Assembly: GCA_015661005.1 (NCBI GenBank)
Contig: JACTTX010000009.1
Coordinates: forward strand, 1-56,125
Source of the DNA: Candidatus Magasanikiibacteriota bacterium
GTDB taxonomy: Bacteria > Patescibacteriota > Patescibacteriia > Magasanikbacterales > JACTTX01
Reading direction: 5' to 3'
DNA length: 56,125 bases
Numbering within the stretch: the stretch's first letter is position 1; each line of letters opens with the position of its first letter. The notes beneath the pieces are model-generated. The model had not been told where the DNA came from, did not search any database, and worked only from the letters and a program-made list of their open reading frames with translations. Shown here piece by piece: positions 4,059-43,041 of the stretch. Made by a program: the position numbers and the translations under genes.

Positions 4059-4069
4059 ATTTTTGGTTT

Positions 4070-4139
4070 GGGGACAGTTCTAAAGGGGACAGTTCTAAAT
4101 CCGCGATTGCGCAGAAGTGTCCCCTTTAGAACTGTCCCC
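4070..4139. repeat. REP-like palindrome with GGGGACAGTTCTAAAGGGGACA arms
   Basis: 22-bp perfect inverted repeat GGGGACAGTTCTAAAGGGGACA / TGTCCCCTTTAGAACTGTCCCC. Confidence 0.85.
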
Positions 4140-4140
4140 A

Positions 4141-6461: not shown

Positions 6462-6559
6462 TTGTTGAATAGTTACCGGCAAATGGCGTGCGCTATCGGA
6501 GAATGAAGCGCAAATGTCGTGTTGCTTAGAACAAGAACGACATTTACGCTTCATTCTCC
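6462..6559. repeat. Palindromic repeat family A: half copy (6462-6497) plus complete hairpin (6498-6559)
   Basis: GGAGAATGAAGCGcAAATGTCGTgttgcttagaacaagaACGACATTTaCGCTTCATTCTCC; preceded by GTTGAATAGTTACCGGCAAATGGCGTG half arm. Confidence 0.85.
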
Positions 6560-6574
6560 TCCAGCTTCCAGCTT

Positions 6575-12353: not shown

Positions 12354-12370
12354 AAATTATTTAGAATATC

Positions 12371-12438
12371 TTGTTGCTTAGAACAAGAACGATATTTGTC
12401 GGTTACTATTCAACTTATACGCCATTTGCCATTCACTA
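12371..12438. repeat. Palindromic repeat family A, truncated copy plus second right-arm fragment
   Basis: AGAACAAGAACGATATTTGTCGGTTACTATTCAAC followed by GCCATTTGCCATTCACTA. Confidence 0.75.
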
Positions 12439-18530: not shown

Positions 18531-18692
18531 AAGTTGGAGACCGGTAAATATTGAAGAGTGACCAGAATAGTAACCTGTGAATGTCGTGTTCGATCAGAGA
18601 GTGAACTCTGGTTGGCGAATGAAAGGGCACAAATATCGTGTTCTCCAAACAAGAACGATATTTGTGCCCTTTCATTCTCCGGTCTCCAGCTT
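18531..18692. repeat. Nested palindromic repeats: outer AAGTTGGAGACCGG/CCGGTCTCCAGCTT, inner family A hairpin 18617-18677
   Basis: GAATGAAAGGGCACAAATATCGTgttctccaaacaagaACGATATTTGTGCCCTTTCATTC. Confidence 0.85.
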
Positions 18693-27117: not shown

Positions 27118-27191
27118 TCCGGGATCGTCTAATGGTAGGACAGCAGCCTCTGAAGCTGTTTATCCTGGTTCGAATCCAGGTCCCGGAGCCA
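27118..27191 (+). tRNA. tRNA-Gln(CTG)
   Basis: TCCGGGA...TCCCGGA acceptor, anticodon loop CTCTGAA, GGTTCGAATCC T-arm, encoded GCCA. Confidence 0.93.
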
Positions 27192-27250
27192 GAGAATTGC
27201 GACACACCGTAGGTGTGGCGCAATTCTCTGCGGGAACTGGATTCGAACGG
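27167..27250. repeat. Inverted duplication of tRNA-Gln 3' half and downstream flank
   Basis: GGTTCGAATCCAGGTCCCGGAGCCAGAGAATTGCGACACACC gta GGTGTGGCGCAATTCTCTGCGGGAACTGGATTCGAACGG. Confidence 0.8.
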
Positions 27251-31368: not shown

Positions 31369-31496
31369 AAGAGTGAACTGCAAATATCGTGTATGTTGAA
31401 TAGTAACCTTTAAATGTCGTGTTCTCCAAACAAGAACGCCATTTACAGGTTACTATTCAACACAAAGCAAGAACGCTTCTTGCAACTTACTGTTCC
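31369..31496. repeat. Palindromic repeat family A: nested copies (inner 31395-31461)
   Basis: Inner GTTGAATAGTAACCTttAAATGtCGtgttctccaaacaagaacGcCATTTAcAGGTTACTATTCAAC; outer GAAGAGTGAACTGCAAATATCGTG / GCAAGAACGCTTCTTGCAACTTACTGTTCC. Confidence 0.85.
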
Positions 31497-33420: not shown

Positions 33421-33593
33421 GAAGCTGGAAGCTGGAAGCTGGAATGTGTGGCGAGTGCGCATCTCTATTTGTTCGACATGGGTCCCGCGCATCTCTGATG
33501 ATAACACTAAGGTAGCGCAAACCCATGTCTCACAAACCCATGTCTCACAAACAGAGATGCGCACCCTTAACAACATTTTTATATTCCAGCTTC
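33421..33593. repeat. Complex palindromic repeat (outer GAAGCTGGAA/TTCCAGCTTC, inner GTGCGCATCTCT/AGAGATGCGCAC)
   Basis: Inverted arms plus tandem 15-bp unit ACCCATGTCTCACAA at 33521-33550. Confidence 0.85.
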
Positions 33594-36157: not shown

Positions 36158-36330
36158 GTTTGAATAGTATCCTGCGAATGTCGTTCTTGTCTTATGTTGG
36201 ATAGTTGCCGACAAATGTCGTGTTGCTTTGAACAAGAACGGCATTTGCCGATTACTATTCAATATGTGACAAGAACGCCATTTGCAGGTTACTATCCAAC
36301 GTCTACGTCATTGGCAAGTAACTATCTAAA
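36158..36330. repeat. Palindromic repeat family A cluster: outer 36158-36300, nested inner 36196-36263, plus right-arm fragment 36301-36330
   Basis: GTTTGAATAGTATCCTGCGAATGTCGTTCTTGTC ... GACAAGAACGCCATTTGCAGGTTACTATCCAAC enclosing GTTGGATAGTTGCCGACAAATGTCGTG...ACAAGAACGGCATTTGCCGATTACTATTCAAT. Confidence 0.9.
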
Positions 36331-36357: not shown

Positions 36358-36708
36358 TTACACCAACTCAATCATCACCGTCTCTCCTGCATCTCCCTGC
36401 CGCCGTCCGATTTTTATGATTCGCGTGTAGCCGCCAACCCGCTCCTTATACCGCGGCGCCAGCACTTCAAAAATTTTCTTGACCGGATGTTCCGTGGAGA
36501 ATTGAGATAAAAGCAATCGCCGTCCGGCTAAAGTTCCGGCCTTCCCGCGGGTAATTGCCCGTTCAACAATCGGCGCTACCGCCCGCGCCTTGGCATCCGT
36601 GGTTGTCACGCGCTCGTACAAAATCACCTGCGCCGCCAAATTCTTAAGCAGAGCCGTGCGCGGGCCGACTTTGCGATCAAGAGTAATTTTTTTCTTGCGA
36701 TGCCTCAT
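36358..36708 (-). CDS. rplQ: 50S ribosomal protein L17
   Basis: MRHRKKKITLDRKVGPRTALLKNLAAQVILYERVTTTDAKA. Confidence 0.95.
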   Translation of the reverse strand: MRHRKKKITLDRKVGPRTALLKNLAAQVILYERVTTTDAKARAVAPIVERAITRGKAGTLAGRRLLLSQFSTEHPVKKIFEVLAPRYKERVGGYTRIIKIGRRQGDAGETVMIELV

Positions 36709-42910: not shown

Positions 42911-43041
42911 TGGAGAATAGTGAAAGCCAATAGCATTCTTGACTGGCGTTGGACAGTAACCTGCAAATGTCGTGTCTTCAATCAAGAACGCCATTTGCAG
43001 GTTACTGTCCAACACTCTGCCATTGGTCATTCACTATTCCA
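42911..43041. repeat. Palindromic repeat family A: outer 42911-43041, nested inner 42948-43013
   Basis: Inner 22-bp perfect arms GTTGGACAGTAACCTGCAAATG / CATTTGCAGGTTACTGTCCAAC; outer TGGAGAATAGTGAAAGCCAATAGCATTCT / ACTCTGCCATTGGTCATTCACTATTCCA. Confidence 0.9.

Follow-up and report, generated by a model that had tools for sequence, protein, structure and literature searches.

A dispersed palindromic repeat nested in the loops of its own copies in a Candidatus Magasanikiibacteriota genome

Mobile elements that are small palindromes have been described before. Small palindromic repeats are common in bacteria, and both how they choose their sites and whether they matter at the RNA level are mostly unsettled. 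The window analyzed here, a stretch of 56,125 nucleotides from a Candidatus Magasanikiibacteriota bacterium, is one complete contig (C23) of an 870-kb genome in 44 contigs. Between its ribosomal protein genes rplQ and rplM lies a palindrome that seems to sit in the loop of another copy of itself. How did one copy come to occupy the loop of another, and what keeps such a structure in the spacer of a ribosomal protein operon?

The nested palindrome of the rplQ-rplM spacer

Both open reading frames that border the element are on the minus strand, i.e., in the same reading direction: rplQ (ribosomal protein L17; positions 36358 to 36708; Pfam PF01196, E value of 3.4e-30) lies upstream and rplM (ribosomal protein L13; 35775 to 36131; PF00572, E value of 5.8e-36) downstream. 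Read directly, positions 36158 to 36300 consist of two concentric copies of one palindrome, with a leftover right arm. The outer left arm, GTTTGAATAGTATCCTGCGAATGTCG (36158 to 36183), pairs with the outer right arm, CGCCATTTGCAGGTTACTATCCAAC (36276 to 36300), which was also recovered by repeat search and folding. The outer loop is split into a 12-nt part, TTCTTGTCTTAT (36184 to 36195), directly 5′ of the insertion point, and a right part, TATGTGACAAGAA (36263 to 36275); this 12-nt junction is found again in most nested copies. The outer loop carries TTCTTG/CAAGAA on each of its sides, an uncommon feature within the family. Inside the loop is a complete hairpin (36196 to 36262, minus strand) that matches the covariance model of the family from 36195 to 36264 with 76.7 bits. 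Its conserved tip loop (36221 to 36238), aligned with the other loops, reads TGTTGCTTTGAACAAGAA in the window and TTCTTGTTCAAAGCAACA on the minus strand, in which direction the tip is sense to rplQ and rplM.

A repeat search identified an inverted repeat with 62-nt arms that are 79% complementary around a 16-nt spacer, as well as three direct copies of the 31-nt right arm (100, 87, and 61%). When the locus was folded, its stability exceeded that of shuffled sequences with z scores of −6.7 as DNA and −9.3 as RNA, and none of 200 shuffles folded equally well. Sequence, repeats, and folding thus agree with the preliminary description of this DNA, which had placed a palindrome inside the loop of its own copy. 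The third right-arm fragment that it listed is present as well, at 36301 to 36329 (ACGTCATTGGCAAGTAACTATC, the 61% direct repeat), and can be described more closely: it is most simply what survives of another enclosing layer that has lost its left arm.

Copies of the family in this genome and in relatives

A covariance model built from 27 copies was used to search the genome. Counted by eye as hairpin places in the match list, the 870 kb contain about 71 full and about 8 partial hairpins, confirming the proposal that the palindrome belongs to a dispersed family; BLAST of the locus against its own genome gave 71 matches, many of them counted on both strands. Five further copies in the window match the model on the minus strand. 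Two are un-nested, with stems GGAGAATGAAGCG (6494 to 6563, beside a fragment of another family copy at 6464 to 6490) and GAATGAAAGGGC (18613 to 18681). One is partial, comprising the loop and right arm (12365 to 12413; also matched by BLAST), and nesting analysis identified the other two as inner copies: 31394 to 31462, with host arms at about 31370 to 31390 and 31475 to 31491, and 42947 to 43014, with host arms at about 42915 to 42936 and 43018 to 43040.

Detailed analysis of the tips covered 65 tips in 580 kb of the genome, read in stretches. All 65 share CAAATGNCG, a 17- to 18-nt loop of the form TTCTTG...ACA, and CGNCATTTG, while the stems differ widely in sequence and each is still self-complementary. 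There are two main loop types, exactly TTCTTGTTCTAAGCAACA in 23 tips and exactly TTCTTGATTGGAGAACA in another 23. The arms covary strongly, with changes on both sides in 19 of 26 stem pairs (0 of 500 shuffles), which fits a constraint on an RNA or DNA hairpin, or arm-to-arm correction. That the conserved part is the tip rather than the ends, and that the stems vary, are points beyond the preliminary description, as is the strong tip polarity described below. At the third core base pair, next to the loop, 18 of the 65 tips carry a G·A mismatch, across different stem types.

Could these be ordinary intrinsic terminators that grew by chance? This reading is scarcely credible. A T-rich tract lies near the foot of 5 tips (e.g., C33:33818 and C17:28080), as a terminator would have it, but is missing from the other 60, which refutes the reading for most copies. 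A terminator scan found nothing at the rplM-rplQ element, in keeping with the earlier view that it is not a simple terminator, and a shared tip together with nested homologous copies is beyond chance. Long hairpins number 15.7 per 100 kb in this genome versus 0 to 8 in six sampled relatives; those of the relatives are mostly terminator-like, and nearly all of those in the 580 kb belong either to this family or to the two repeat families that flank the Y1 genes discussed below.

The rpoA gene of this genome has its closest named match among public genomes in a Candidatus Uhrbacteria record (64% identity), which places the genome in the Patescibacteria (CPR). The nearest genomes among the relatives searched are of the same order, none being of the same taxonomic family. 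With filters stricter than those of the own-genome search, the covariance model found no copy in the 85 other genomes from the order, nor in 380 genomes sampled across the phylum, so that the nested structure is not conserved in these relatives as one RNA. The exact loop pattern had 0 matches in public genome and viral contigs, a collection from which near-identical records were possibly left out, and the family was not found in phages or plasmids. rplQ directly neighbors rplM in 28 of 29 relatives, with the two genes at most 53 nt apart or overlapping; these are empty sites of the kind for which the preliminary description had suggested looking. The best reading is that the family is a lineage-specific repeat.

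The one exception, genome G002, has an unrelated palindrome in its rplQ-rplM spacer, with many similar ones elsewhere in that genome. These purine-rich palindromes resemble the present family in being self-complementary intergenic repeats, one of which occupies the same spacer, and in forming layers at other sites; they differ in having an unrelated arm sequence and a centre of two small hairpins. G002, which belongs to another family of the same order, has its self-complementary intergenic repeat independently, and intergenic palindromes in ribosomal operons may recur as a trait of the order.

Nesting and the insertion junction

Nesting is not peculiar to the ribosomal locus. The flanks form an outer stem (score of at least 10) around 26 of the 65 tips, versus 1.9% of random places and 17% when flanks were swapped. 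A GTT...AAC foot is present in 28 hairpins of the 580 kb, and 26 of these abut a host-loop half-motif at one side or both, the host being one-sided or degenerate for a few. We parsed 22 junctions. The usual one lies 12 nt into the host loop, with 5 to 6 nt on the other side, and has the form TTCTTGTCTTNT^A(N)TACA; the guest has the orientation of its host in 13 and the opposite orientation in 9. No constant target-site duplication was recognized at the 22 junctions, and the exact preinsertion loop is uncertain. Three layers, the maximum depth, occur at C3:18134, C14:1721, and C14:2903, with the same junction at two levels. Near-matching stems also exist with empty and with filled loops (C39:28370 versus C11:1361 and C20:20657 versus C33:23373). 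The repeated nesting in the hairpin loop that had been proposed from one locus therefore recurs genome-wide, at a near-fixed loop point.

Do these nested copies record separate insertions? Nesting might instead have arisen once or a few times, with the two-layer hairpin then spreading whole and the common core arms, GCAAATGNCG, letting copies exchange loops and stems by homologous recombination or gene conversion. The junctions are indeed highly uniform, and no empty TTCTTGTCTTGTATACA-type loop occurs among the 65 tips. Moreover, at C14:1721, C14:2903, C34:4065, and C39:14638 one and the same inner GTTCAAATAG hairpin is enclosed by outer copies of a single kind, and when every group is counted, sequence distances between inner copies correlate weakly with those between outer copies (r = 0.19, P = 0.03), implying that some composites were copied as units. 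Filled loops also depart from empty ones in their middle ∼8 bases, only C36:1451 clearly retaining the common empty-loop TTCTTGATTGG; for this reason we keep composite inheritance as the main rival. Against it stand the many kinds of host stem, the occurrence of the inner copy in both orientations, and the identical junction at two levels of the three-layer loci. Once the GTTCAAATAG group is left out, the distances of inner and outer copies are hardly related (Mantel r = 0.18, P = 0.11), and this near-independence favors separate insertions over a copied composite. We consider composite inheritance fairly unlikely.

Two other layered arrangements were seen. In five places (C14:10284, C17:45856, C21:13042, C33:4258, and C44:34683), a tip with stem GGCGAATGGAAGGGC precedes a spacer resembling CACTGTAGCG and then a second half-tip, a composite that recurs. 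Another long palindrome (GTGCGCATCTCTATTTGTTCGACATGGGT...) lies at 33455 to 33564 of the window, and its arms also form an outer layer around some family tips, e.g., at C19:6292.

Tip polarity, candidate movers, and known elements

Because a palindrome is the same on both strands, only the loop and the mismatches of a copy give it a direction; purine-rich 5′ arms were rejected as a polarity signal on this ground. The loop is asymmetric, so each tip can be assigned a direction, and with gene calls based on open reading frames, 46 of the 51 tips that lie between same-direction genes read in sense (P = 2.3e-9). Three tips lie where the local genes run against the regional majority, and each keeps to the direction of its local genes; Pfam names five of the six flanking genes there (FtsW/RodA, RmuC, S20, FtsK, and an HTH_25 protein). 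A replication-strand cause of the polarity is accordingly not favored, few as these cases are. Read in the sense direction, stem mismatches are G·T in 26 cases versus A·C in 11 (P = 0.02), an excess that is expected if the RNA matters and is weak evidence when taken alone. The strong tip polarity points to an RNA-level constraint.

Polarity, the G·T excess, the strong covariation, and the preference of copies for intergenic spacers, at ∼70 to 77 nt from each flanking gene, would all suit a conserved cis-acting RNA, a processing, stability, or attenuation hairpin selected at each operon spacer and not mobile. Such an RNA would not be expected to lie at unrelated genes, to be built of several nested layers, or to be absent from the 85 other genomes of the order and the phylum sample, with the relatives' spacers empty. 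In Rfam, no family reaches its gathering score at the element (only tRNAs pass), and below the cutoff there are chance microRNA-like matches of the kind that long hairpins attract. We judge this alternative to be quite unlikely.

On balance, and with somewhat more confidence than doubt, we favor a nonautonomous palindromic repeat, specific to this lineage, whose insertions target hairpin loops, mostly those of its own copies, and which persists as tolerated or retained sense RNA. According to this model, a ∼68-bp palindromic repeat would spread between genes, and its GTT-footed form would insert almost exclusively at one position in the loop of an existing family hairpin, in either orientation, generating concentric palindromes. 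A putative enzyme, supplied in trans, may recognize the conserved tip of an extruded or single-stranded palindrome and may cut or join DNA in the hairpin loop. Most copies lie between same-direction genes, in spacers that are transcribed, and would for that reason be retained mainly with the tip read in sense. The structured sense RNA might be tolerated or might serve as an insulator, processing site, or stability element, with antisense tips selected against. Dispersed copies, homologous nesting, a near-constant junction, empty rplQ-rplM sites in relatives, covariation, and sense polarity are directly seen; mobility, a mover, and any RNA function are conjectural. A bolder version, which we offer tentatively as a lesser possibility, is a hairpin-loop-specific mobile repeat that targets the loops of its own copies and whose tip takes its orientation from transcription: insertion might act on, or be directed by, nascent RNA, or the repeat might carry the sense tip around as a functional RNA signal.

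What could move such a repeat? The preliminary description suggested looking for a Y1 transposase elsewhere in the genome, and two Y1 (REP-associated tyrosine) transposase-like genes exist, at C32:18388-18723 and C32:4073-4402 (83.5 and 79.3 bits against NCBIfam NF047646, with a cutoff of 80). A role as mobilizer is not supported, as the flanks of both genes fail to match the family and consist of their own repeats, AGAAGTGGCACC...GTGACACC and GGGGACAGTTCTAAAGGGGACAC. One of these carries a GGGGACAG motif, typical of TIR-associated transposases (PMC3733652). The TIRYT-associated terminal repeats with their GGGGWSAS motif (PMC3733652) are represented in this genome as separate palindromes, GGGGACAGTTCTAAA..., unrelated in sequence to the present family. 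Solo palindromes of the Y1-flanking repeats occur elsewhere, including at 4069 to 4140 of the window.

A REP or REPIN element moved by these resident transposases would share much with the family: REPINs are mobile hairpins with compensatory changes (PMC3116915), and REPIN/REP systems with RAYTs (PMC3116915, PMC3733652) likewise comprise short, dispersed extragenic palindromes and long hairpins with compensatory arm changes, spread within one lineage, with Y1 genes in the same genome. In REPINs, however, it is the ends that are conserved and the middle that varies, whereas this family conserves tip and loop and varies in its stems, the reverse arrangement. The copies also nest in their own loops, and the GTAG/CGTC tag of REPs was not seen in the family, whose feet are, e.g., GTTGAAT/ATTCAAC. 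With the Y1 genes bearing other repeats, this explanation is very unlikely.

The feet of integron attC sites are RYYYAAC on the 5′ side and GTTRRRY on the 3′ side. GTTGAAT conforms to the latter, but this family has its boxes in reverse order (GTTGAAT...ATTCAAC), and attC was rejected. Inverted repeats are present in the family, and the partner search for a MITE reading covered the Y1 and reverse-transcriptase families. A single partial reverse transcriptase at C44:51058-51324 (184-amino-acid open reading frame; LGNLTSQ and YADD motifs) possibly derives from a diversity-generating retroelement. It was rejected as mover, being one fragment without a link to the repeats.

Palindromes within palindromes have been noted before (PMC3733652). 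In A. variabilis, T. roseum, and H. neapolitanus, REP dimers are likewise palindromic repeats centered in another palindrome (PMC3733652), but there the host is a different sequence, whereas here host and guest are homologous, in up to three layers and with a near-fixed loop junction. Yeast mitochondrial GC clusters and fungal double-hairpin elements, as far as the account in PMC4478555 describes them, are also tiny mobile palindromes that have no known enzyme of their own and that merge or combine; they differ in being mitochondrial and in having short direct repeats at their flanks, and that part of the account reports no transcription polarity of a conserved loop. What is new relative to known palindromic repeats is that homologous copies nest in one another at a near-fixed point of the loop, that the tip is conserved while the stems vary, and that the tip has a polarity relative to transcription. 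With ∼70 copies in one minimal genome, one of the spacers lying within a ribosomal protein operon, the family provides natural replicates for studying insertion into loops and selection at the RNA level.

One other hairpin of the window, at 27190 to 27248, directly follows tRNA-Gln and precedes a T-arm-like GTTCGAATCCAGTTCCCGCAG on the other strand; ARAGORN called no second tRNA there.
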